Assembly (NCBI GenBank): GCA_900109485.1
Contig: FOAY01000012.1
Location: 1-64,000, forward strand
Direction: 5' to 3'
Length of the DNA stretch: 64,000 nt
Source: Kosakonia sacchari
GTDB lineage: Bacteria > Pseudomonadota > Gammaproteobacteria > Enterobacterales > Enterobacteriaceae
Shown: positions 937 to 44,358 of the stretch, one piece after another
Numbering within the stretch: the first letter of the stretch is position 1
Layout: each line of letters begins with the position of its first letter
Notes under the pieces: generated by a model
Seen by the model: only the letters and a program-made list of their open reading frames with translations
Database searches by the model: none
Told to the model about the DNA's origin: nothing
Position numbers and translations under genes: made by a program

Positions 937-1012
937 GGCCCCTTAGCTCAGTGGTTAGAGCAGGCGACTCATAATCGCTTGGTCGTTGGTTCAAACCCAA
1001 CAGGGGCCACCA
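937..1012 (+). tRNA. ileX: tRNA-Ile2 (anticodon CAU, lysidine-modified), ileX type
   Basis: A 76-nt cloverleaf is readable. The acceptor stem GGCCCCT (937-943) pairs with AGGGGCC (1002-1008), followed by A and encoded CCA (1010-1012). The D-loop AGCTCAGTGGTTAGAGC and T-loop GGTTCAAACCC are canonical, and the anticodon loop CTCATAA carries CAT. CAT normally means methionine, but the body matches E. coli ileX, whose C34 is converted to lysidine by TilS so that it reads AUA. Position beside mug agrees. The G/C-rich run before 937 (around 926-933) fits a stringent-type stable RNA promoter. Confidence 0.95.
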
Positions 1013-4067: not shown

Positions 4068-5237
4068 ATGAACAAACCTATAAAACGGCTTGAAATCATC
4101 AAATACGCCATCGAACTGGAGGATGACGGCATCATCCTCAGTCAGCTTCCTTTGTTGAAAAATGAAGTTACGGATCCGGAGTTAGCGTTTATCGTCCATG
4201 CGCTTGAAGAGAAGAATTACAGCGAAGCGATGCGCGCCATAACGAACTGGCTGCAAAACCAGCGTTCCGTCGTGAGCTGGCAGGATCCGCTGGTGGCCGC
4301 CAGCAAACTGGAACTGAAAGCGCTGGAAGAACAACTGCGCGAACTGATTGATAAACGCAACGCGCGCATCCAGTTGCTCGACGAGTTCAACGATCTCTAC
4401 TTAACCCGCCTCGGCCCGCTGATGTCGCAGATCCTGCGTCTGCGCAAAACCCTGGCGGAAGCCGCCGTTCGCCGCCAGGAAGCCGAAGCGCGCCGTCGCG
4501 AAGCCGATTATTTGCGGTGCCAGAAGTATCTGTCGCAGGCGGTGGAAGTGCTGGTTACCTTGACGCAGCGCTGGCAAAGCATGCCGCCGCACTCATTGCA
4601 GGCTGCCGAAGCACGCAAACATCTGCAACAGCAAAGCGAGCTGATCGCCTCGTTGCTGGCCGAAGCGCAAGAGCTGGAACGCGGTCTGACGCGTGAAGAA
4701 GAACCGGCACGCCAGGCGCGTGACGAAGCGCGTCAGGAATACGAGAGCTATCAGGAACAGCAGCACGATGCCGAAAAACGCTTTAGCTTCGAGCAGAAGA
4801 TGTCAGAGGATGAGCGTCACGAGCTGAAGCGACTGTGGCGCCAGGCCAGCAAACTCTGCCATCCGGATCTGGTGGACAACGATTTTAAAAATGAAGCGCA
4901 CAGCATGATGGTGCAGCTCAACCAGGCGCGCCAGCGCGGCGATCTGAGTGAGATCCGCGCGATTCTGACCCGCCTGCAGAAAGGGCTGGAGCCGCTGATG
5001 GCCAGCGATCGCTTAAACGATCTACAGCGCCTGCGTCAGCGTATTGCTGAAGTGAAACAGCATATCGCCAGCCTGATTGAAGAGCTGGCAACGCTCGAGA
5101 AAGAGGAATCCTGGCAGCTCATATCGTCGCTGGGCGATCGGGAAACCTACTTCCGCCAGCAGGAAAAAGCGCTGGGCGAAATTCGCCAGACGCTGGAGCA
5201 GCAAGTCAGCGAAGCCGAATACGACGAAGTGGCCTGA
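4068..5237 (+). CDS. J-domain (DnaJ-like) coiled-coil protein
   Basis: 389 residues. The J-domain core lies inside the protein: helix II and loop ERHELKRLWRQASKLCHPDL, with His265-Pro266-Asp267 as the invariant HPD that stimulates DnaK-type ATPases. Residues about 78-160 and 175-245 are Glu/Arg/Gln-rich heptad-like helices, and 315-385 form another coiled coil. There is no Gly/Phe region, zinc finger or client-binding domain, so it is a class III J-protein. The N-terminal 70 residues are a separate helical region. It is a single gene, convergent with yqjH. Its Hsp70 partner and client are unknown, and it is absent from the K-12 order at this place. Confidence 0.8.
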   Translation: MNKPIKRLEIIKYAIELEDDGIILSQLPLLKNEVTDPELAFIVHALEEKNYSEAMRAITNWLQNQRSVVSWQDPLVAASKLELKALEEQLRELIDKRNARIQLLDEFNDLYLTRLGPLMSQILRLRKTLAEAAVRRQEAEARRREADYLRCQKYLSQAVEVLVTLTQRWQSMPPHSLQAAEARKHLQQQSELIASLLAEAQELERGLTREEEPARQARDEARQEYESYQEQQHDAEKRFSFEQKMSEDERHELKRLWRQASKLCHPDLVDNDFKNEAHSMMVQLNQARQRGDLSEIRAILTRLQKGLEPLMASDRLNDLQRLRQRIAEVKQHIASLIEELATLEKEESWQLISSLGDRETYFRQQEKALGEIRQTLEQQVSEAEYDEVA

Positions 5238-5244
5238 AAGCAGC

Positions 5245-5267
5245 AAGCCCGGTGAAAAACCGGGCTT
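5245..5267. terminator. Bidirectional terminator between J-domain gene and yqjH
   Basis: Stem AAGCCCGG (5245-5252) and CCGGGCTT (5260-5267) with an A-rich loop lies in the 35-bp gap between two convergent genes. It has no long U-tract on either strand, so efficiency is uncertain. Confidence 0.6.
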
Positions 5268-5272
5268 CGTCG

Positions 5273-6043
5273 TTATTTCTTGTGCCAGTACGCCTGCGCG
5301 CGCACCCGTTGCTGATCGATATTGTCGGTCGCATAGCGCTCCATCAGCGATTTCACCACTTCACCTTCCCCGGTCAGCCAGATAAAATAGTCCTCATCGG
5401 CGATGGTCAGCGAAGCCAGTTTATCGTGCAGCGCCTGCGGGTTATGACCAACCACCCATTGAATATCAAAGCCGCTCAGATGCGCCAGATAATCCTGATA
5501 CGCCGCATCGGCAACCGTCACCACAGCCGTCACTTTCGGGCGAACCGCGAGCAGGCTGAGCGCTTCCAGACGGCGACGCAGCGCAGGCATACCGGATTCA
5601 TCGCACACATAGAGTTGCCAGGCGTAATCTTCCGGCACCACCAGCGAACCGCGCGGCCCGCCAATCGTCAATGTATCCCCTGCCTGCGCATTCACCGCCC
5701 AATGGCTCGCCACGCCACCGTCGTGAATATAGAAATCCACCACCAGTTCGTGACGGCTGGCGTCATAAATCGGCGTGTAATCGCGGGATGCCGGGCGCGG
5801 TCCATCGCCCCAGACGATACCTTCGTCGGTCACCGTCGGCGGCACAAAGTGCGACCCCGGCTGCGGAAAGAAGACTTTTGTATGATCGTCAAAACCGCGC
5901 GACGTAAAGCCTTCCAGTTGTTCACCTCCCAGCACAATGCGCTGAAATCCGCTGCCAGCGCGTTCCGCGCGCAGAACAGTTAACTCGCGAAAGCGCAGTT
6001 CATTGCGTACGCGTTGGGGATAACGTTGAGAATGAGTTGTCAT
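5273..6043 (-). CDS. yqjH: NADPH-dependent ferric-chelate reductase YqjH
   Basis: 256 residues from the start at 6043 (E. coli YqjH has 254). An upstream in-frame start at 6214 would add 57 residues running across the regulatory region and is not credible. The protein is a siderophore-interacting FAD-dependent reductase: RDYTPIYD binds FAD (RxYT motif), DFYIHDGGVASHWA is the family signature, and the C-terminal half forms the NADPH domain. It reduces Fe(III) in siderophores such as enterobactin to release iron in the cytoplasm. It is divergent from yqjI, whose product represses it in E. coli, and a Fur-box-like sequence lies in the promoter. Confidence 0.93.
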   Translation of the reverse strand: MTTHSQRYPQRVRNELRFRELTVLRAERAGSGFQRIVLGGEQLEGFTSRGFDDHTKVFFPQPGSHFVPPTVTDEGIVWGDGPRPASRDYTPIYDASRHELVVDFYIHDGGVASHWAVNAQAGDTLTIGGPRGSLVVPEDYAWQLYVCDESGMPALRRRLEALSLLAVRPKVTAVVTVADAAYQDYLAHLSGFDIQWVVGHNPQALHDKLASLTIADEDYFIWLTGEGEVVKSLMERYATDNIDQQRVRAQAYWHKK

Positions 6044-6279
6044 AATCGGCCTTCGTGAAAGTGAATACGATATATCTAAATGTTGTGCAAATGATAATGA
6101 TTGTTGATTGCGCAGAAGACAAGCCATTTTTATGATATAAACCACATGAAAGCACCGATTGCCAAAACATAAAATTATTATTTTTATTATCAATAACATA
6201 AAAACAAAACTCATTACAACATTGTCTAAATAGTCAATTTAGATATAAATTAGATATATCAATTTATCAGGAGTACAGC
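6044..6279. promoter_or_regulatory. yqjH-yqjI divergent control region with Fur-like and YqjI-like sites
   Basis: A Fur-box-like core AATGATAATGATTG is at 6090-6103, matching the GATAAT repeats that Fur recognises, close to yqjH. GATATATCTAAA (6069-6080) near yqjH is mirrored by TTTAGATATA (6238-6247) and TTAGATATATC (6250-6260) near yqjI. These TAGATATA elements are the likely operators of YqjI, which in E. coli represses both genes and is released by nickel excess. Site assignment rests on sequence pattern and the known circuit. Confidence 0.65.
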
Positions 6280-19254: not shown

Positions 19255-19323
19255 TCCCGCCTTTGCGCCGGGCAAAAAACTGGTAGTCTGTTAGCCACTC
19301 TTTTTTGCCCACCAGGCAGACCT

Positions 19324-19803
19324 ATGTACAACATTGATGACTTCGATCTGAAGATCCTGACGCTGCTACAGTCCAACGGCCGTTTGACCAACCAGGAGCT
19401 CAGCGAGCTGATTGGTCTTTCCGCGTCGCAGTGTTCCCGCCGCCGAATTGCGCTGGAACAGGCGCAGTTGATTCTCGGCTATCACGCAAGACTCGCGCCG
19501 GATGCCGCCGGCCAGGAGATGCTGGGCCTGATCGAGGTGCGTCTGCTGAACCATACGCCGGAGTGCGTGGCGAGCTTTCATCAGATGGTCAGCGGCGTGG
19601 ATGCGATCATTGACGCCTATAAAACGACCGGTGACGCGGACTATTTACTCAAAGTAGCGGTTGCCGATCTGCCGGGGCTAAACCACTTAATTAGCGGCAT
19701 CCTCGCGCAAAATAAGAGTGTCGCGCATCTGAAAACCTCGGTAGTGCTGAATCGCCTGAAAGAGAACGGTTTGCTGATGCCGGGCAGCAGCGCATTGCCC
19801 TGA
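19324..19803 (+). CDS. Lrp/AsnC-family transcriptional regulator
   Basis: 159 residues. The N-terminal helix-turn-helix DFDLKILTLLQSNGRLTNQELSELIGLSASQCSRRRIALEQAQLI is followed by the RAM/AsnC ligand domain (about 65-150), with GDADYLLKVAVADLPGLNHLI marking the effector pocket. Family members sense amino acids and control amino-acid metabolism. Being the first gene of the accessory block that holds two transaminases, a methionine-type ABC transporter and luxS, it is a good candidate for their regulator, but no operator was identified. It is not Lrp or AsnC itself. Confidence 0.9.
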   Translation: MYNIDDFDLKILTLLQSNGRLTNQELSELIGLSASQCSRRRIALEQAQLILGYHARLAPDAAGQEMLGLIEVRLLNHTPECVASFHQMVSGVDAIIDAYKTTGDADYLLKVAVADLPGLNHLISGILAQNKSVAHLKTSVVLNRLKENGLLMPGSSALP

Positions 19804-20054
19804 AATGGGGCGTGATGCCTCTTTCTGGTGCGACGCAGTAATGTTTTCATGCATAAATCATCGTCGATACGCACACATCACCCGAAAATAACGCCATATA
19901 CGCGCGTAACGTGCAAAACCCTCTTTTCCAACATTTCAATATGTTAGCGAGTGTGTCGGCGGTTTATCCACCGTTCGCGCTTCACAACCCTGCCATCTGG
20001 TGCATTTATTGCAGGTGATACTTATCTTTATCACTTAAATAATTGTGCACACTT
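19804..20054. other. Intergenic region before the YitT-type gene
   Basis: 251 bases with no frame or terminator I can support. Its 3' part must contain the promoter of the YitT/TyrB-like gene pair. No recognisable operator was seen. Confidence 0.35.
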
Positions 20055-20669
20055 ATGGATAACGTCCTTACCCCCGATAAACTCGCCCATAGCTGGCTGG
20101 AAGATGCGCTGGCGCTGCTGTTTGGCACGCTGATGATCTCTTTTGGCGTCGTGCTGTTTCGTCAGTCCGGCGCGCTGACCGGCGGGACGGCTGGACTGGC
20201 GTTTCTGATCCACTACACCACCCATGTTTCGTTTGGCGTGGCGTTCTTCCTGATTAACCTGCCGTTTTACTGGCTCTCCGTGCGCCGCATGGGCGCGCAG
20301 TTTACGTTGAAGACCTTCTGCGCCGTAGCGATGGTATCGCTCTTTTCCGATCTGCATGGCCGTTTTATTCATATCGATCAGCTCAACCCGTTCTACGCCA
20401 CGCTGTTTGGCAACATCATGATGGGGATTGGTTTTGTGGTGCTGTTCCGCCATAAAGCCAGCCTCGGCGGCATGAATATTCTGGCGCTCTGGCTTCAGGA
20501 AAAGAGCGGGATCCGCGCCGGGAAATTCCAGATGGTGGTGGATGCCTGCATCGTCACTGCTTCGCTGTTCGTGGTGAATTTGCCGATGCTGGTGGTGTCG
20601 GTTGTCGGCGCGACCATCCTCAATTTGATTATCGCCATGAACCACCGCCCCGGACGCTACGCGGTGTAA
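20055..20669 (+). CDS. YitT-family (DUF161) membrane protein
   Basis: 204 residues from ATG 20055; an in-frame GTG 20043 would add four residues and has no better ribosome binding site. Five to six hydrophobic helices are readable, with the family hallmarks FGVVLFRQSGALTGGTAGLAFLIHY near the N-terminus and GIGFVVLFRHKASLGGMNILALWLQE in the middle; both repeat the pattern of Gly-rich turns typical of this family. It is an inner-membrane protein, possibly a transporter, with no established substrate. It lies 36 bp ahead of the TyrB-like transaminase on the same strand, so the two may be co-transcribed and the substrate may be an amino or keto acid (inference). Confidence 0.85.
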   Translation: MDNVLTPDKLAHSWLEDALALLFGTLMISFGVVLFRQSGALTGGTAGLAFLIHYTTHVSFGVAFFLINLPFYWLSVRRMGAQFTLKTFCAVAMVSLFSDLHGRFIHIDQLNPFYATLFGNIMMGIGFVVLFRHKASLGGMNILALWLQEKSGIRAGKFQMVVDACIVTASLFVVNLPMLVVSVVGATILNLIIAMNHRPGRYAV

Positions 20670-20705
20670 TGGATTGAACCTCTGACCAACCCCAGGAGTT
20701 GTAAC

Positions 20706-21899
20706 GTGTTCCAGAATGTTGATGCCTATGCGGGCGATCCGATCCTCTCTCTGATGGAAGCTTTCAATCAGGATAACCGTGGCGACAAGGTCAATCTCAG
20801 TATCGGTCTTTATTACAATGAGCAGGCGATCATCCCGCGCCTCGACGCCGTACAGCAGGCAGAAGCACGTCTGCAAAGCCAGCCACAAAGCGCCAGCCTC
20901 TATCTACCGATGGAAGGTTTTGCGCCTTATCGCAGCGCAGTGCAAACGCTGTTGTTTGGTGAGTTACATCCGGCGCTGCGTGCCGGGCGTATTGCAACCA
21001 TCCAGACGCTGGGCGGCTCCGGCGCGCTGAAAGTGGGCGCGGACTTTCTGAAAAGCTACTTCCCGGATTCCGAAGTCTGGGTCAGCGATCCGACCTGGGA
21101 AAACCATATCGCGATTTTCGCCGGTGCCGGGTTCACGGTGCATCGCTATCCCTACTTTGATAACGCCAGCCGCGGCGTCGATTTCGCTGCGATGCTCGCC
21201 ACGCTGAAAACGCTGCCGCCGCGCAGTATCGTGCTGTTGCATCCCTGCTGCCATAACCCAACCGGGGCGGATCTGACGCGTAATCAGTGGGATCAGGTTA
21301 TTGAAGTGCTGATTGCCCGCGAACTGATCCCGTTCCTCGACATCGCTTACCAGGGCTTTGGCGCCGGGCTGGATGACGATGCCTATGCCATTCGCGCCAT
21401 TGCCAGCGCCGGTTTGCCTGCGCTGGTCAGCAATTCGTTCTCGAAAATCTTCTCGCTCTACGGCGAGCGCGTCGGCGGATTGTCAGTGGTGTGTGAAGAT
21501 GCGGACGCCGCCGCCCGCGTGCTTGGGCAGCTTAAAGCCACGGTGCGGCGCAACTACTCCAGCCCGCCGAATTTCGGTGCACAGGTGGTTTCGCTGGTAC
21601 TTAACGACCCGCAACTGAATGCACTCTGGCGTGCTGAAGTGGAAGCGATGCGTAGCCGTATCAGCGAGATGCGGCACGCGCTGGTAGCGGCGCTGAAAAC
21701 CGCGTTACCGGAGCAGGATTTCAGCTTCCTGCTAAGCCAGCGCGGCATGTTCAGTTACACCGGTTTTAGCCCTGAGCAGGTGGAAAAACTGCGTGAAGTC
21801 TTTGGCGTCTACCTGATCGCCAGCGGCCGTGTCTGCATGGCGGGGCTGAACCACCACAATATCGCCCGCGTGGCGCAGGCGTTCGCCGCCGTTCAGTAA
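20706..21899 (+). CDS. TyrB-type aromatic amino acid aminotransferase (paralogue)
   Basis: 397 residues, the length of E. coli TyrB, with close similarity throughout ([37 protein letters not shown]). The PLP lysine is Lys247 in [22 protein letters not shown] is at 183-187. It starts at GTG with CAGGAG upstream. TyrB-type enzymes transaminate phenylalanine, tyrosine and leucine, and in Klebsiella a TyrB-type enzyme also converts 2-keto-4-methylthiobutyrate to methionine. The usual tyrB locus is next to alr, so this may be a second copy recruited into a sulfur amino acid island. Whether another tyrB exists cannot be seen. Confidence 0.88.
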
Positions 21900-21906
21900 A
21901 CGTTGG

Positions 21907-21935
21907 CGGGTTCCGCAGGGACGCGGAACCCGGTT
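21907..21935. terminator. Terminator between tyrB-like gene and the luxS-operon SDR
   Basis: A 10-bp perfect stem CGGGTTCCGC (21907-21916) / GCGGAACCCG (21923-21932) with a 6-nt loop lies in the 38-bp gap between two convergent genes. T-rich sequence follows on the plus strand. Confidence 0.8.
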
Positions 21936-21937
21936 TG

Positions 21938-22699
21938 TTAATGCATGGTCATGCCGCCGGTGACATTGATGGCCTGCCCGGTCATATACGAGGCTAACAG
22001 GCTGGCGAGAAAGGCGACCACGTTGGCGACATCCAGCGGCTGCGCCGTGCGCCCGAGCAGCACTTGCGAGCAATCTTCCGCGTAGATATCTTCCGCCGTT
22101 AAACCGCGCAATGCAGCACCTTCGCGACGTTCGCGCCACTTCATCTCCGTCTCGACAATACCGGGGCAAACGGCGTTCACCAGAATGTTATGCCGCGCCA
22201 GTTCGATAGCCATCACCCGCGTCAGCCCCAGCACCGCATGCTTGGTGGCGACATATTGCCCCATCAACCGGTAACCGTTTTTCCCGGCCTGCGACGCAAT
22301 ATTGATGATGCGCCCGGCGGATTGCGGTTTCATCACGCGGATCGCCGCTTCTGACAAATAACTCAGCCCTTTGACATTGATGTCCAGCAACCTCTGCCAG
22401 TCGCTATCGCGCATGGCATCTACCGGGCTCATCGCCGAAACGCCGCAACTGTTGACCAGAATATCCACCCCGCCAAACCTATTCACCGCAGCGTCGATCA
22501 AAGCCTCCGCCTGCGGGCGTGAAGCCACATCGCAGGGTTGCAGCAGATAGCGTGCATGCGGCTGTGCGGCTGTCGCGGCGATATCACCGACGACGACATT
22601 CGCGCCGCCCTGATGCAGCAGATCGGCAATCGCTTTGCCGATCCCCTGTAACCCGCCGCTCACCACGGCGGTTTGCCCGCTAAAATCGAGGGCAATCAT
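21938..22699 (-). CDS. SDR oxidoreductase, last gene of the luxS-type operon
   Basis: 253 residues, a complete classical SDR. GGLQGIG (15-21) binds the cofactor, Asp39 at the end of the second strand favours NAD(H), and Ser136, Tyr149 and Lys153 are the catalytic triad. The usual NNAG is replaced by NSCG (83-86), a mild oddity. The start lies 2 bp after the luxS-like stop, so it is the fifth gene of the operon metQ-metN-metI-luxS-SDR. Dione, acetoin and polyol dehydrogenases share this fold. DPD, the LuxS by-product, is a 2,3-dione, so reduction of DPD is an attractive but untested guess. Another sugar alcohol substrate is possible. Confidence 0.85.
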   Translation of the reverse strand: MIALDFSGQTAVVSGGLQGIGKAIADLLHQGGANVVVGDIAATAAQPHARYLLQPCDVASRPQAEALIDAAVNRFGGVDILVNSCGVSAMSPVDAMRDSDWQRLLDINVKGLSYLSEAAIRVMKPQSAGRIINIASQAGKNGYRLMGQYVATKHAVLGLTRVMAIELARHNILVNAVCPGIVETEMKWRERREGAALRGLTAEDIYAEDCSQVLLGRTAQPLDVANVVAFLASLLASYMTGQAINVTGGMTMH

Positions 22700-22701
22700 G
22701 G

Positions 22702-23160
22702 TTAGTTACGCCGGAACGGATCATCGCTGATCCCGGCTTCAAGCACCTGTTTTGCGTACTCCTGCGCCGAGAAAAGCGAATGGTCGCGATAGTTGCCGCA
22801 GGCCAGCGGCGTCACCGCCGGAACGTCGGTCGCGTCAAGGACGCGGCGCAGGACGCGCGTCAGAGCGGCAGCCACATCGGCAGGTTTGTGCTCATCCCAC
22901 AGGATCAGGTAGAAACCGGTGCGGCAGCCCATCGGCGAAATATCGATAATGCCGTCCAGCTCCTCGCGCAGGCCAAAGGCCAGCAGATGCTCCAGCGTGT
23001 GCAGTGCCGCCGTCGGAATGGCGTCGGTATTCGGTTGCAGCAAACGCAAATCAAACTTTTGCACCACGCTGCCCAGCGCGTGGCGTTCAACGCCAGCAAC
23101 GCGAACGTAAGGGGCTTTCACTTTGGTGTGGTCGAGCGTAAAGCTTTCAACAACAGGCAT
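22702..23160 (-). CDS. LuxS-family S-ribosylhomocysteine lyase, Firmicutes-like
   Basis: 152 residues. The zinc ligands His54 and His58 with general base Glu57 (HTLEH), the catalytic Cys79 ([10 protein letters not shown]) and the third zinc ligand Cys121 (CGNYRDHS) are all present, so it should be active: S-ribosylhomocysteine to homocysteine plus DPD, the AI-2 precursor. The sequence does not resemble the E. coli enzyme (171 residues, MPLLDSFTVDHTRM). Segments such as [33 protein letters not shown] and [18 protein letters not shown] recall clostridial LuxS. It starts 16 bp after metI in a five-gene operon. It is likely a second, horizontally acquired luxS beside the usual chromosomal one (normally near gshA, not in this window). 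Symbol left empty because the orthologous luxS is probably elsewhere. Confidence 0.9.
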
Positions 23161-23176
23161 GATTTTCTCCTCAGGG

Positions 23177-23854
23177 TTACCGCGACGACTCGCGGCGCAG
23201 ACGGCGCGCCAGGCGGGTGCCGAGGGTCTGGATTAACTGCACAATGACAATCAGAACAAGGGCAGTCACCAGCGTGGCAAACGCATCAAAGCGCTGGTAA
23301 CCGTAAGTAATGGCGAGATCGCCGATGCCACCGCCGCCGACCGTTCCGGCCATTGCGGTGGCGCCCAGCAGACCAATGGTGGCGGTTGTTAATGCGAGGA
23401 CCAGCGAAGAGGCAGCCTCCGGCAGCATAAAGTGCCAGATCGTTTGCAGCGGAGAAGCGCCCATCGCATCCGCCGCTTCCAGAATGCCGTCATCAATATC
23501 CAGCAGTGAGCTCTCCACCAGCCGCGAAATATACGGCGCGATAAAGACAATCAGCGGCACAATCGCCCCGGCAGTGCCGATAGTGGTGCCAACCAGCAAG
23601 CGGGTGAAGGGCAGAATGGTGATCAGCAAAATGATAAAAGGCAGCGAGCGCACGACGTTGATCACCGGGTTTAGCACCTGATGAACCACGTGATTAGGCA
23701 CAATGCCGCCGGGTCGGCAAATCACCAGCACAATCCCCAGCGGAATGCCAAGCAGCGAGCCAAATCCTAACGACACGCACACCATCACCAGCGTGTCATG
23801 CAGCGCCAGCACAAACTGGTCGCCGGTCACGGCAGTATCAAATAACTCAAACAT
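23177..23854 (-). CDS. MetI-type ABC transporter permease
   Basis: 225 residues with five to six membrane helices and the ABC permease EAA loop ([22 protein letters not shown]) that docks on the ATPase. The fold and length match MetI of the D/L-methionine importer MetNIQ. The start overlaps the end of the metN-like gene by 8 bp, so translation is coupled. Together with the downstream luxS-type gene this suggests import of methionine or a related thioether, but the substrate may differ from that of the housekeeping MetNIQ. Confidence 0.9.
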
Positions 23855-24854
23855 CGCTGATTTTTACCCCCGCCTCGTGAAGATCGGCAATCGCGCTGGT
23901 CACCGCCGCGTCGTCCCCCTGAATTTGCACAATCATAAAACCGATAATGCGGTTCTGGACTTCCGACATGCTGGCAAAAAGGATATTGATTTCAATCGCA
24001 TAACTTTTGATGATGCGGTTGATGATCGGCTGTTGCGCGGTGCTGCCGACAAACTCCAGCCGCAACCCGCGCCCGTGCGCCTGAAGTAATGCATCAACGC
24101 GCGCCGGAAGCCGGTCGTGGATCACCGATTGAACAAAACTGGCGGTTACCGCATGACGGGGTTCCGCGAACAACGTAAACACCTCGCCGTGCTCCACTAT
24201 CCGGCCCCGCTCCATCACCGCCACTTTGTTGCAAATCTTTTGCACCACTGACATTTCATGCGTAATCAACACGATAGTGATGCCATAGCGCTGATTGATC
24301 TCTTTCAGTAGCAGCAGGATCTGCACGGTGGTGTGCGGATCCAGCGCCGAGGTCGCTTCATCGCACAGCAATACCGAAGGATTAGTGGCCAGCGCGCGGG
24401 CGATGCCAACGCGCTGTTTCTGCCCACCGGATAACTCGTCCGGGTAGCTATGCGCCTTGTCGCCAAGGCTGACGAAATCGAGCAGTTCCGTAACACGCGC
24501 CTGGATAAAAGCTTTATCTTTCCCTTGCAGAATTAATGGGATGGCCACGTTATGAAAAACAGTTTTCGCATTCAGCAAATTAAAATTCTGAAAGATCATG
24601 CCGATGTTTTTTTTGATCGCCTGCAAGCGCTTTCCGGTTACGCCCTGCAGCGATTCGCCATTCAGCACGACATCGCCTTTCCCTGGAGATTCAAGACGAT
24701 TGATTAAACGTAGCAAGGTACTTTTCCCTGCACCGCTGTAACCAATAATCCCGAAAATATCGCCCTTTTCAATTTTCAGAGAAATGTTATCCAGCGCCTG
24801 GATTTGGTGGCCGTTACGCGCAAAGGTTTTACTGACGTTACGAAACTCAATCAT
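23847..24854 (-). CDS. MetN-type ABC transporter ATPase with NIL domain
   Basis: 335 residues. Walker A GYSGAGKST is at 38-46, the Q-loop in MIFQNFNLL, the ABC signature LSGGQKQ at 141-147, Walker B VLLCDE at 161-166 and the H-loop at LITHEMS. A C-terminal NIL/ACT-like regulatory domain occupies about 260-335, which in E. coli MetN binds methionine and shuts transport off (trans-inhibition). Its presence strongly supports a methionine-family importer with feedback. It begins 8 bp after the metQ-like stop. Confidence 0.92.
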   Translation of the reverse strand: MIEFRNVSKTFARNGHQIQALDNISLKIEKGDIFGIIGYSGAGKSTLLRLINRLESPGKGDVVLNGESLQGVTGKRLQAIKKNIGMIFQNFNLLNAKTVFHNVAIPLILQGKDKAFIQARVTELLDFVSLGDKAHSYPDELSGGQKQRVGIARALATNPSVLLCDEATSALDPHTTVQILLLLKEINQRYGITIVLITHEMSVVQKICNKVAVMERGRIVEHGEVFTLFAEPRHAVTASFVQSVIHDRLPARVDALLQAHGRGLRLEFVGSTAQQPIINRIIKSYAIEINILFASMSEVQNRIIGFMIVQIQGDDAAVTSAIADLHEAGVKISDV

Positions 24855-24862
24855 CGGATTAT

Positions 24863-25678
24863 TTATTTAAAGTAATCAGGCAACAGATAGCCGCTATATT
24901 GCGATTGTCCGTGAATATAATTTTTGAATTCGGCCGAGTGATAGCCAGCAATAATATCTTTGGCAAACTGCGCATCTTTATTTTTGCCCGCGATGGTTAC
25001 CACATTAATAAAGTTGCTGGTGGGATCTTCCAGTTTTAATGCCGAAGCCAGTTTCATTCCACTGGAGACCGCAAAATTCCCCTGAATTAATCCATAATCC
25101 ACATCCGGCAGGGCGCGAACCTGCTGGGCGTTATCCATCTCTTTCAACACAATTTTATACGGGTTTTCACTGATATTGCGCTGGGAGAAGGTGGCCGGAT
25201 CGCTCTTCGGATCGATCTTTATCCAGCCCAGACTTTGCAGCACCAGCGCGGCGCGATACTCGTTTGAGGGCTGATTCGGTACTGAAACCGTGGTGCCAGC
25301 TTCGGGTTTCGCCAGTTGTTTTATCTTCGCGGAATAGAGCCCCATCGGCGGCGTCGGCACCTGCACAATGCCGATATTATCGATGCCTAAACGTTCATTC
25401 ACCGATTTAAGGTACACCGGGTGCTGCATGATATTGGCTTCAATATTCCCGCGCGCCACCGCGTCATTCACCTGAATACCGTCGCTGAAATCTTTAAATT
25501 CGACAGTGTAGCCTTTCGCCTGCAGGAAAGGGACAACACCTTTTTCGAACTGCTCTTTATAAGGGCCAGGGTTAAAACCCACGCGGATGAGTTTAGTTTG
25601 CGCATCCGCCGCCTGCGCCAGCGAAGAGGAAGTGGCTAATAATGCAAAGATAACACCCAATATGACTGGCCTGCTCAT
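24863..25678 (-). CDS. MetQ/NlpA-type substrate-binding protein
   Basis: 271 residues from ATG 25678, which has GGGGA 8 nt upstream; an in-frame TTG at 25708 would add 10 residues. A signal peptide is clear (MSRPVILGVIFALLATSSSLAQA, cleavage after AQA). There is no lipobox cysteine, so unlike E. coli MetQ it should be a soluble periplasmic protein. The mature part IRVGFNPGPYKEQFEKGVVPFLQAKG belongs to the NlpA/MetQ family, but it is well diverged from E. coli MetQ. It is the first gene of the metQNI-luxS-SDR operon and is divergent from an MtnE-like transaminase. Confidence 0.88.
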   Translation of the reverse strand: MSRPVILGVIFALLATSSSLAQAADAQTKLIRVGFNPGPYKEQFEKGVVPFLQAKGYTVEFKDFSDGIQVNDAVARGNIEANIMQHPVYLKSVNERLGIDNIGIVQVPTPPMGLYSAKIKQLAKPEAGTTVSVPNQPSNEYRAALVLQSLGWIKIDPKSDPATFSQRNISENPYKIVLKEMDNAQQVRALPDVDYGLIQGNFAVSSGMKLASALKLEDPTSNFINVVTIAGKNKDAQFAKDIIAGYHSAEFKNYIHGQSQYSGYLLPDYFK

Positions 25679-25874
25679 TAACAATGTCCCCATCAGAATA
25701 AATTTCAATCTGATTAAATCACAGGCGATATATTTTTATTTTGCTTTTTTAGCATAACGATAATTATCCACCGAATATTCAAAAAATAAAAAACCATTGC
25801 CGCTTTTATTCTTTAGTGAATCCGCTATTTACTGTTATGCCATAGGGAATAATGAATAGTGTGTTGAGCAAACT
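25679..25874. promoter_or_regulatory. Divergent promoter region of metQ-like operon and mtnE-like gene
   Basis: An AT-rich 196-bp gap with a long low-GC core at about 25720-25830 that must hold two back-to-back promoters. No MetJ box (AGACGTCT repeats) and no SAM riboswitch were recognised. An Lrp/AsnC-type site would be degenerate and AT-rich and so hard to see by eye. Confidence 0.45.
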
Positions 25875-27056
25875 ATGCCTGATTTTTCCCCTTCACCGTT
25901 GATCGATGCGCTGGAAGAGAACCTGTTTAGCGCGCTGGAAAAGGTGGCGGCAACCATTGATACCGCCGCGTTGCCGCTTGTCGATCTCTCCAGCGGCAGC
26001 CCTGGGCAACCCACACCGCCGGAAATCATTGCCCGCCTGCAACAGGCCGTTGCCGACGAGCAGAACCACGGCTATCCCTCGTTCTGGGGCAAAACAGAGG
26101 TGCTTCAGGCGATTGCCGATTTTTACCGGCAACGCTATGGCGTCGAACTGGATGCGGAGCGGGAAGTGGCGGTTTTCCAGGGATCGCACATCGGCGTCAG
26201 CGGTCTGCCGCGCGCGCTGCTCAAGCCCGGGCAATACCTGATCTCCACCGATCCTTGTTACCCCATTTACCGCTCAGCCGCGCTACAGGCGCAGGCTCGC
26301 TTTTATGGCATCCCGCTGGAAGAAGCCGATGACTTTTTACCGGACTTCAGCCGCGTGCCCGCCGACGTCGCCCGTCATGCTGGTTTATTGATGCTCAACT
26401 ATCCGCACAACCCCACCGGCGCGCTGGCCACGCCAGCGTTGTTCGCGGCAGCGCTCGATTTTGCCCGCGAGTACCATCTTCCGGTAGTGCATGATTTTGC
26501 CTATGCGGCGATTGGCAGCCACGCAGAAGAAGCGCCATTAAGCCTGCTGTCGATGCCCGGCGCTAAAGCGTGGGGCGTGGAAACCTATACGCTGTCGAAA
26601 ACCTTCAGCATGGCGGGCTGGCGCTTTGGTTTTGCCGTCGGTAATGCGTCTGTCATTCAGGCGTTTAAAAAGCTGCATACCCACAGCTACAGCACCGTTT
26701 TTGGCGCGGTGCAGGATGCGGCAATCGCGGCGTTAGCGCTGCCGCCACAGCGTATGCAGCAACTGGTCGCGATTTACCATCAGCGGCGCAAATGGGTGCT
26801 GGAAACGCTGGCCGCGATGTCATGGCCGGTACATGCCAGGCAAGGCACATTCTTTCTCTGGTTGCCCGTACCCGCGGGCTTTAATGCCGCTACGTTTTCC
26901 GCTTTACTGCTGAACGAGGCGCATGTGCTGGTTGCGCCAGGTTCTGGCTTTGGTAAAGGAGGCGAGCAGTTTATTCGTATCAGCCTGACGGCCAGCGATG
27001 AGGCGCTCGAAACCGCGCTGGCGCGTATTGCCGCGCTGCGTCTCTTTCCCGGTTGA
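25875..27056 (+). CDS. MtnE-like methionine/branched-keto-acid aminotransferase
   Basis: 393 residues, a fold-type I PLP aminotransferase. Lys242 in YTLSKTFSMAGWRFGFAVGNASV binds PLP, and NYPHNPTG lies at 175-182. Segments such as GSPGQPTPPEI, AVADEQNHGYPSFWG, VVHDFAYAAIG and the SKTFSMAGWRFGFAVGNASVI block parallel Bacillus subtilis MtnE (YkrV), which converts 2-keto-4-methylthiobutyrate to methionine in the methionine salvage pathway. LL-diaminopimelate and alanine aminotransferases are near relatives, so specificity is an inference supported by the divergent metQNI-luxS operon. The start gives MPDFSPSPLIDALEEN. Confidence 0.82.
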   Translation: MPDFSPSPLIDALEENLFSALEKVAATIDTAALPLVDLSSGSPGQPTPPEIIARLQQAVADEQNHGYPSFWGKTEVLQAIADFYRQRYGVELDAEREVAVFQGSHIGVSGLPRALLKPGQYLISTDPCYPIYRSAALQAQARFYGIPLEEADDFLPDFSRVPADVARHAGLLMLNYPHNPTGALATPALFAAALDFAREYHLPVVHDFAYAAIGSHAEEAPLSLLSMPGAKAWGVETYTLSKTFSMAGWRFGFAVGNASVIQAFKKLHTHSYSTVFGAVQDAAIAALALPPQRMQQLVAIYHQRRKWVLETLAAMSWPVHARQGTFFLWLPVPAGFNAATFSALLLNEAHVLVAPGSGFGKGGEQFIRISLTASDEALETALARIAALRLFPG

Positions 27057-27150
27057 GGCCATTTGTGCTTCTGCGTAGCAGTGCACTGGTTTTGTCATTA
27101 TGACGTGGTAGAGTGCACAAAGACCCCATTTACGGAGAAATTGCGCCCTT

Positions 27151-43970: not shown

Positions 43971-43981
43971 GCCTGAAAAAT

Positions 43982-44358
<377 letters not shown>

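Follow-up and report, generated by a model that had tools for sequence, protein, structure and literature searches.

A second, Paenibacillus-type luxS beside a methionine-type importer and a predicted dione reductase in Kosakonia sacchari

Introduction

It is a matter of long-standing debate whether LuxS serves chiefly in metabolism or in the making of a signal. This question is raised by a locus of Kosakonia sacchari in the window analysed here, that is, the whole stretch of 64,000 nucleotides at the start of contig FOAY01000012.1. A minus-strand operon, metQ-metN-metI-luxS-SDR (21938-25708), places the gene of a LuxS protein (LuxS2) between those of a methionine-type importer and that of a short-chain dehydrogenase/reductase (SDR), and an aminotransferase gene (AT2, 25875-27056, plus strand) diverges from it at the metQ end. 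The tight arrangement of five genes back to back with the aminotransferase was noticed in an earlier reading of the sequence (the original prediction). The open reading frames (ORFs) and all gaps are as first described: 2 bp between SDR and luxS, 16 bp between luxS and metI, -8 bp between metI and metN, and 8 bp between metN and metQ. All six products pass Pfam cut-offs (PF02664, PF03180, PF00528, PF00005 together with the NIL domain PF09383, adh_short, and Aminotran_1_2). What, then, does a LuxS do in this company? The cassette of foreign LuxS, methionine-type importer, and reductase probably recycles sulfur and disposes of the signal by-product. Taken as a whole, a horizontally spread sulfur-recycling unit is the best explanation, to which we give slightly less than an even chance.

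Identity and origin of LuxS2

LuxS2 (22702-23160, minus strand) belongs to the LuxS family by both PF02664 (169.7 bits against a cut-off of 27) and the equivalog model NF002606 (229.1 against 208); it is below the cut-off of each of the nine other LuxS-matching NCBIfam models listed. In an alignment of 117 LuxS rows, His54, Glu57, Cys79, and Cys121 are invariant (117/117) and His58 is found in 116/117. Ser6, His11, and Arg39 are also kept in LuxS2. These eight residues are presumably those with zinc-ligand and catalytic roles in LuxS, and the original prediction was right to regard the first five as intact. The intact residues suggest that LuxS2 would be an active enzyme.

The genome (36 contigs, 5.54 Mb) holds two LuxS genes, whose products are ~45% identical. 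The other luxS (locus L171, 6303-6818) is on a separate contig, just 3' of a gshA-like ORF (4605-6149; gshA named by eye), which we take to be the usual enterobacterial site. A second luxS near gshA was what the original prediction had proposed to look for; its presence makes the luxS of the window a paralogue. An AdoHcyase-family protein was not found in the host genome.

The best 80 LuxS loci (one genome per species) are those most like the query, so that they are biased towards the clade of LuxS2 itself; one (L083) is from Bifidobacterium. 'Enterobacter sp. EA-1' (94% identity) and Phytobacter ursingii (90%) are on top, followed by Paenibacillus (72-80%), Sporosarcina and Lederbergia (72-73%), and then Trichococcus, Enterococcus, Lactobacillaceae, and others. 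The 12 LuxS2 rows of Enterobacteriaceae form one clade (100/100) in the 117-protein LuxS tree, and this clade is nested with Paenibacillus LuxS in a fork of 17 rows (92/89, not starred). Canonical enterobacterial LuxS is separated from the LuxS2 and Paenibacillus proteins by a branch of 2.37. A cross-phylum transfer from a Paenibacillus-like donor into the Enterobacteriaceae is most likely, because LuxS2 nests with Paenibacillus LuxS and canonical enterobacterial LuxS lies on a long branch. The Firmicutes (Bacillota-type) origin that had been suspected is borne out by this placement. The original prediction had described the protein as clostridial rather than like E. coli LuxS; the dissimilarity to enterobacterial LuxS holds, but the nearest kin are from Paenibacillus and a clostridial origin is unsupported by the 117-protein tree. 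LuxS2 is carried by 10 of 392 Enterobacteriaceae genomes (79-100% identity), and by 3 of 15 in the genus.

Before the LuxS and SDR trees were built, re-fetched duplicates, identical sequences, stop-containing matches, LuxS proteins of fewer than 125 residues, and SDRs of fewer than 200 residues were left out. The EA-1 copies L006 and L147 were also left out, EA-1 being represented by L134, and the luxS-adjacent SDR of L076 is likewise absent. It should be mentioned that frame breaks interrupt the canonical luxS of EA-1 (L006/L147; G042/G401) as well as several genes of its cassette. The breaks are likely sequencing errors, because the completeness of the assembly is only 49. A LuxS from Sedimentibacter (L021, 8001-8456) is in the Trichococcus cluster with zero branch length of its own, as a result of either recent transfer or contamination.

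Conservation of the neighbourhood

Outside this host, LuxS, SDR, and MetQ or MetNI recur together in further Enterobacteriaceae, members of the Paenibacillus family, and some lactobacilli, and also on plasmids. LuxS2 is thus neither the sole copy nor a member of the enterobacterial group, and its neighbourhood is not unique to this strain, contrary to what would have spoken against the original prediction.

In the 11 enterobacterial loci other than the window (L145-L155), an SDR gene adjoins luxS in 9/11, MetQ is encoded within 5 kb in 10/11, and MetN and MetI are present in all 11. An aminotransferase is found within 6.5 kb in 11/11, a BisC-like reductase in 6/11, and an iron-containing alcohol dehydrogenase (Fe-ADH) in 4/11, with a fifth (L154) just past the limit. 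The order in L151 and L152 is luxS-SDR-BisC-FeADH. L153 and L155, sisters from one genus, are without SDR and BisC and have Fe-ADH directly after luxS, which is explained most simply by deletion of SDR and BisC. A MetQ of the module type (E ≤1e-80) is present in 18 of the 392 Enterobacteriaceae genomes, namely in 9/10 with LuxS2 as against 9/382 of the others (Fisher p 8.7e-13, an indicative value since the genomes are related). The tenth LuxS2 genome, EA-1, has a broken MetQ in the same place.

Of 148 genomes drawn from the Paenibacillus family, 13 contain a match to LuxS2, the query being the LuxS2 protein and not the family model; the other 135 are unmatched by this query. The SDR gene is adjacent to luxS and on the same strand at all 13 loci, and MetQ, MetN, and MetI are near in 12/13, Pfs in 11/13, the aminotransferase in 4/13, and Fe-ADH in 3/13 (L199 ends at a contig edge). 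Two layouts are seen. In layout A, luxS-SDR is divergent from metQ-AT2-metN-metI-FeADH-pfs; layout B is a single run, metN-metI-luxS-SDR-metQ-pfs, with eight members, in one of which (L204) Pfs was not seen. P. elgii (L017) and P. tyrfis (L019) have a luxS with neither SDR nor importer beside it. An AdoHcyase-family protein is present in 36 of 38 genomes tested (the 13 with these loci, 5 more with LuxS, P. elgii among them, and 20 without), and both exceptions bear LuxS. With matches in 13/148 genomes and an AdoHcyase-family protein in 36/38, LuxS looks accessory in this family. Since 135/148 genomes are unmatched by the LuxS2 query, quorum sensing through LuxS is probably not a general trait there.

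Three L. plantarum plasmids, one of them typed as mobilizable, carry GAF-metN-metI-metQ-luxS-acetoin reductase. The GAF protein encoded in the Sporolactobacillus module is similar to solved fRMsr structures, and that of the plasmids matches it at 62%. The association of LuxS, SDR, and metQ(NI) is conserved in two phyla in differing gene orders. Inspection of the neighbouring ORFs by eye, without a family search aimed at Lsr, showed no Lsr genes.

The SDR encoded behind luxS

The SDR gene occupies 21938-22699 on the minus strand. Its product matches adh_short_C2 with 187 bits and is below the cut-off of each of the best 25 of 227 NCBIfam models. In the alignment, an Asp closing the second strand (GDI) and the Ser/Tyr/Lys motif are present; the former presumably means an NAD(H) cofactor, and the latter is taken to be the SDR motif. 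LuxS releases 4,5-dihydroxy-2,3-pentanedione (DPD), which is a vicinal dione; compounds of this kind, and acyloins, are the substrates of acetoin reductases. The protein is predicted to be an NAD(H)-dependent reductase of DPD.

In the SDR tree of 65 rows, a clade of 36 rows (SH-aLRT 99), to which the window SDR belongs, consists exclusively of SDRs of luxS modules; the tree was made by a quick method with SH-aLRT support only and with SDR paralogues from 4 genomes, and clade members away from luxS are possible elsewhere. Thirty-four of the 36 adjoin luxS, and two from Sporolactobacillus are ~4 kb off in the same gene run. Three lactobacillar SDRs adjacent to luxS are outside this clade, in a group of six rows (97) with acetoin reductases, and all three pass TIGR02415 (347-373 bits against 304). 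Two acetoin reductases of this group are the host's own, one of them encoded behind an acetolactate-synthase-like ORF (named by eye). Two separate branches contain luxS-adjacent SDRs, and the slot behind luxS has therefore, as judged from the tree, been filled on at least two occasions from distinct branches of the SDR family. Since LuxS makes a vicinal dione and acetoin reductases reduce such compounds, reduction of DPD would be the simplest function common to both branches, and this repeated recruitment is the best evidence for it. The original prediction had proposed that the SDR possibly reduces DPD; the recurrent gene order and the two branches favour this, and the reaction itself we infer.

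The Fe-ADH behind luxS in L153 and L155 was considered as a third independent recruitment and rejected, since the sisters L151, L152, and L154 carry Fe-ADH beyond SDR and BisC. Confidence in a functional coupling of LuxS to the SDR was lowered for this reason, and the case for such coupling now seems evenly balanced. Conversion of DPD to 1-deoxy-D-xylulose for cofactor synthesis was also dropped, as the stereochemistry to be expected would not match.

The same arrangement might be regarded as a signalling unit. LuxS2 would make extra autoinducer-2 (AI-2), and the SDR would turn it into a different or silent signal, for the purpose of quorum sensing or interference. LuxS enzymes are known as a family to make DPD, and two SDR branches stand beside luxS; a precedent is QQ-2, described in the available part of PMC4942472 as an SDR acting on AI-2. 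However, the genes that recur beside luxS encode a methionine-family importer and, among Paenibacillus-family genomes, also Pfs; the control elements found are of the methionine type. A signalling unit is therefore improbable.

The MetQNI importer

The importer consists of a MetI-type permease (23177-23854, minus strand; PF00528), a MetN-type ATPase with a NIL domain (23847-24854, minus strand; PF00005 and PF09383), and a MetQ/NlpA-type binding protein (24863-25708, minus strand; PF03180, 190 bits), whose start is TTG at 25708 or ATG at 25693. All three miss the NCBIfam cut-offs for methionine transport: MetN with 371 bits against 499.7 (TIGR02314), MetI with 195.9 against 212 (NF008049), and MetQ with 90.1 against 374. 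The nearest solved chain to MetQ is 3gxa (GNA1946, 179 bits).

The N-terminal region of MetQ contains no Cys and hence no lipobox, as had been pointed out in the original prediction. This is not distinctive, since three of the four paralogues of the host that were aligned also have no clear lipobox by eye; the host genome has five MetQ/NlpA proteins over the cut-off. Asn202 and Asn229 are presumably substrate-binding residues of canonical MetQ. The equivalent of Asn229 is kept in the window MetQ, and a Gln stands at the column of Asn202 of the host's own canonical MetQ. An earlier assignment of the difference to Asn229 was rejected, the differing column being that of Asn202. The Gln is common to the MetQ of the window, Klebsiella, Pantoea, and Paenibacillus layout A. 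Elsewhere, the column has Gly in layout B and Ser in several lactobacillar and other Bacillota MetQ proteins; Asn202 is kept in the host's own paralogues, Neisseria MetQ, and the Sporolactobacillus-type rows. The specificity of the module MetQ may thus differ from plain methionine. The change to Gln as a mark of linkage to LuxS was rejected, since luxS-free Klebsiella has it too.

It should also be mentioned that some enterobacterial cassettes (L005, L154, L281, and L283) have, beyond the BisC-like gene, genes for an isopenicillin-N-synthase-like oxygenase and another set of metQNI. In L284-L286 (G361, G231, and G302), module-type metQNI is beside such an oxygenase, and LuxS or AT2 had no match in the stretch read.

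Control elements

A divergent control region (25709-25874) separates metQ from the aminotransferase gene. Control by MetJ was rejected: a MetJ-type box with up to 3 mismatches was not found in the window. Before the Paenibacillus modules, neither a riboswitch nor a T-box was found at the gathering threshold. An S-adenosylmethionine (SAM) riboswitch is upstream of the Sporolactobacillus module L037. A T-box precedes the Paucilactobacillus module L039, with AUG at the place read as the specifier, and another T-box is upstream of luxS in L164. A few loci show control of the methionine type. Two Bacillaceae-1 RNAs (RF01690) lie between metQ and luxS in Sporolactobacillus nakayamae L037 (7652-7823).

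Proposed function

In the proposed mechanism, MetQ-MetN-MetI would take in a methionine-family thioether. S-ribosylhomocysteine (SRH) would come either from imported S-adenosylhomocysteine (SAH) or SRH or out of the methyl cycle of the cell itself, and LuxS2 would split it into homocysteine and DPD. Next, the SDR encoded just behind luxS would reduce DPD to a hydroxyketone, so that the by-product neither builds up nor becomes AI-2. In relatives with a glycerol-dehydrogenase-like Fe-ADH, the reduction could go on to the diol. We infer both DPD as the substrate of the SDR and the nature of the imported compound.

A more specific form of this proposal is a mobile nutrient cassette, which would import SAH or SRH shed by other cells or plants, cut it with its own LuxS, and destroy the AI-2 precursor with a dedicated DPD reductase. 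LuxS would then be a silent scavenger and not a signal maker. This form seems rather unlikely, and import of SRH or SAH itself is doubtful. The presence of Pfs near luxS at 11 of the 13 Paenibacillus-family loci is a point for SRH-like or SAH cargo.

Several observations weigh against a sulfur-recycling unit of the proposed kind. The host genome already has a canonical LuxS. Near related cassettes, a BisC-like reductase (939 bits, just below the family cut-off of 1017.6) and fRMsr-like GAF proteins (resembling the structures 3ksf, 1vhm of YebR, and 3mmh, and without NCBIfam match) would suit methionine sulfoxide as the cargo. In relatives from Klebsiella and Pantoea, metQNI and the aminotransferase gene are present although luxS-SDR is missing, and therefore the importer works without LuxS2. 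MetN and MetI of the layout B Paenibacillus loci are only 38-44% identical to those of the window, which means that the transporter part was assembled more than once. An adjacent SDR is found at only 16 of the 78 loci L008-L085 (of the best 80), 34 of these 78 having a MetQ within 5 kb, and two of the 11 enterobacterial loci (L153 and L155) are without SDR beside luxS. The window SDR itself reaches only 207.4 bits with the acetoin reductase model TIGR02415 (212.2 for the SDR of Paenibacillus L010), below the cut-off of 304.35, and among solved structures a quinuclidinone reductase is closest to it. Finally, of the 33 distinct loci scanned only four have a SAM riboswitch or T-box, and in one of these (L074) the element precedes a second metQ and not luxS.

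These points bring in an island for methionine supply without import of SRH. MetQNI would bring in methionine, D-methionine, or methionine sulfoxide, LuxS2 would add methyl-cycle capacity for extra SAM turnover, and the SDR would detoxify intracellular DPD. The sulfoxide reductases of both kinds in sister cassettes, the luxS-free metQNI-AT2 relatives, and the SAM riboswitch and T-box control in a few loci are in keeping with such an island, as is metNPQ of B. subtilis, which the accessible text of PMC6004538 cites for L-methionine, D-methionine, and an oxidation product. On the other hand, the canonical luxS of the host counts against this explanation as well, and the AdoHcyase-family protein in nearly all Paenibacillus-family genomes tested makes extra LuxS capacity hard to justify. 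In addition, layout B, with Pfs, LuxS, SDR, and MetQ in one gene run, points to dedicated handling of SAH or SRH. Methionine supply without SRH import is a serious possibility, weaker than an even one.

The evidence on the cargo, read from gene content, is mixed between SRH or SAH and methionine or its sulfoxide; the sulfoxide reductases and the luxS-free relatives would speak for the latter. The original prediction of an imported SRH-like thioether split by LuxS thus has Pfs on its side, and the sulfoxide reductases and luxS-free metQNI relatives against it. Overall, that prediction is partly supported: the coupling of LuxS to the SDR gains from the repeated gene order, and import of an SRH-like compound is one of two good options.

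Aminotransferase AT2

AT2 is a class I aminotransferase resembling PRK08068. It is below the cut-off of each of the best 25 of 65 NCBIfam models, the best being PRK08068 'transaminase' (428.6 bits against 494). Its best solved relative is 6l1l (292 bits), with YbdL 1u08 at 87 bits. The AT2 gene adjoins metQNI in Klebsiella, Pantoea, and Paenibacillus layout A. The likeness to MtnE claimed in the original prediction rests on a match below the cut-off, and only four of the 13 loci of the Paenibacillus family have an aminotransferase gene close to luxS; a role as MtnE is putative at most.

One might suppose that the SDR and the aminotransferase act on the keto and hydroxy acids of methionine (2-oxo-4-methylthiobutyrate and its hydroxy form), luxS being adjacent only through shared methionine regulation. 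The matches of AT2 listed include LL-diaminopimelate (LL-DAP) and methionine aminotransferases, all below cut-off. The best model for the Fe-ADH of Paenibacillus L010 is PRK10586, which we take to be the YbdH model (282 bits, below the cut-off of 429). According to the part of PMC3228920 at hand, ybdH co-occurs with methionine salvage genes. Nevertheless, the SDR tracks luxS, and 9 of the 13 Paenibacillus-family loci have luxS-SDR and no aminotransferase within 6.5 kb (L199 being cut by the contig end). This explanation is very improbable.

Genomic island and history of the cassette

The cassette lies in a variable island (19255-27150) between YgjP-like and oxidoreductase (OxR) genes (named by eye). 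The island is bracketed by a genus-wide fixed order, OYE-RlmG-YgjP-[ ]-OxR-TerC (names by eye). It also contains genes for an Lrp/AsnC-type regulator and a YitT-type membrane protein (19324-20669, plus strand; named from the annotation of Klebsiella records and synteny) and AT1, an aromatic amino acid transaminase (20706-21899, plus strand; NF006719, 593.5 bits, above the cut-off of 377), which is common to the Klebsiella and Phytobacter loci. The comparison drew on 14 genomes of the genus and covered 11 genus mates lacking LuxS2; G007, of the 15 genus genomes counted above, was left out. In eight of the 11, island proteins are unmatched between YgjP and OxR (gaps of ~85-165 bp). Two others (L307 and L309) retain Lrp-YitT alone, and one has a YitT remnant of 24 residues. 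The island, spanning ~19255-27150, is dispensable, because most of these mates have nothing between YgjP and OxR, and the leftovers suggest loss of the island as well as gain. In the 64-kb window, RNase P RNA (43979-44358, minus strand) and tRNA-Met (937-1012, plus strand) are the only features found with Rfam (gathering threshold) and ARAGORN.

A 30-row tree built from concatenated MetQ-MetN-MetI has a clade of 16 rows (100/100) with 11 luxS-bearing and five luxS-free rows. The five, nested in the clade, are from Klebsiella, Pantoea, and L281, and two luxS-free groups that are more distant fall outside it. The branch order broadly agrees with that of the LuxS2 tree. The simplest story is one gain followed by several losses of luxS-SDR in the Enterobacteriaceae. 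Late insertion of luxS-SDR into a Klebsiella-like metQNI locus was rejected, since the luxS-free rows nest inside the luxS-bearing clade and loss explains this at least as well.

The absence of the island from eight of 11 genus mates, its reduction in three, and the loss of luxS-SDR in several lineages would be expected of a chance or hitch-hiking neighbourhood without joint function. Such a neighbourhood is scarcely credible in view of its conservation in two phyla with different gene orders, and of one clade of luxS-module SDRs together with an SDR from another branch in the same slot.

Comparison with known systems

A metQNI-luxS-SDR cassette was not found described among the matches listed in the open-access literature; PMC4239095, PMC10418091, PMC10991690, and PMC4209062 give, in the parts available, general background only. 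If the reductase consumes DPD, some bacteria would have evolved built-in disposal of AI-2, and the cassette would offer a direct test of metabolic versus signalling LuxS. It predicts a new enzyme activity, a dedicated DPD reductase, with two candidate SDR families. In plant-associated enterobacteria, counting luxS genes as quorum-sensing capacity may then mislead; an excerpt of PMC6125372 tabulates luxS(2) and lsr genes for Kosakonia radicincitans.

The cassette resembles the Pfs-LuxS branch of the activated methyl cycle in having a LuxS family member with the catalytic residues and, at most Paenibacillus-family loci, Pfs near luxS. In contrast to that branch, the cassette LuxS is accessory, is in part carried on plasmids, and in Enterobacteriaceae is an extra copy tied to an importer of the MetQNI type and to a reductase. 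With the MetNIQ (MetD) transporter it shares the three-gene make-up, the NIL domain, and the MetQ family, whereas the cassette proteins are below the NCBIfam methionine cut-offs, without lipobox, and with Gln at the Asn202 position. Rare extra metNIQ-like clusters (metD2-7) occur in gammaproteobacteria, and the relevant section of PMC3228920 does not mention luxS.

Diacetyl/acetoin reductase (TIGR02415) is of the same SDR family, and its reduction of a vicinal dione is the proposed chemistry; the three lactobacillar luxS-adjacent SDRs are members by cut-off, whereas the clade of the window SDR is separate and below it. QQ-2, an SDR from a metagenome screen, showed low-rate NADH oxidation with an AI-2-like furanone, and reduction of AI-2 was proposed; the portion of PMC4942472 available describes no linkage of QQ-2 to luxS, whereas here the reductase is encoded together with luxS. 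The T-box-controlled yxjH-luxS of lactobacilli is likewise a LuxS in a methionine-controlled Lactobacillaceae unit but, unlike the cassette, is listed without importer or reductase in the pages of PMC6004538 at hand. As far as its genes tell, the cassette would be a variation on LuxS-based sulfur recycling, with the predicted DPD reductase as its new part.

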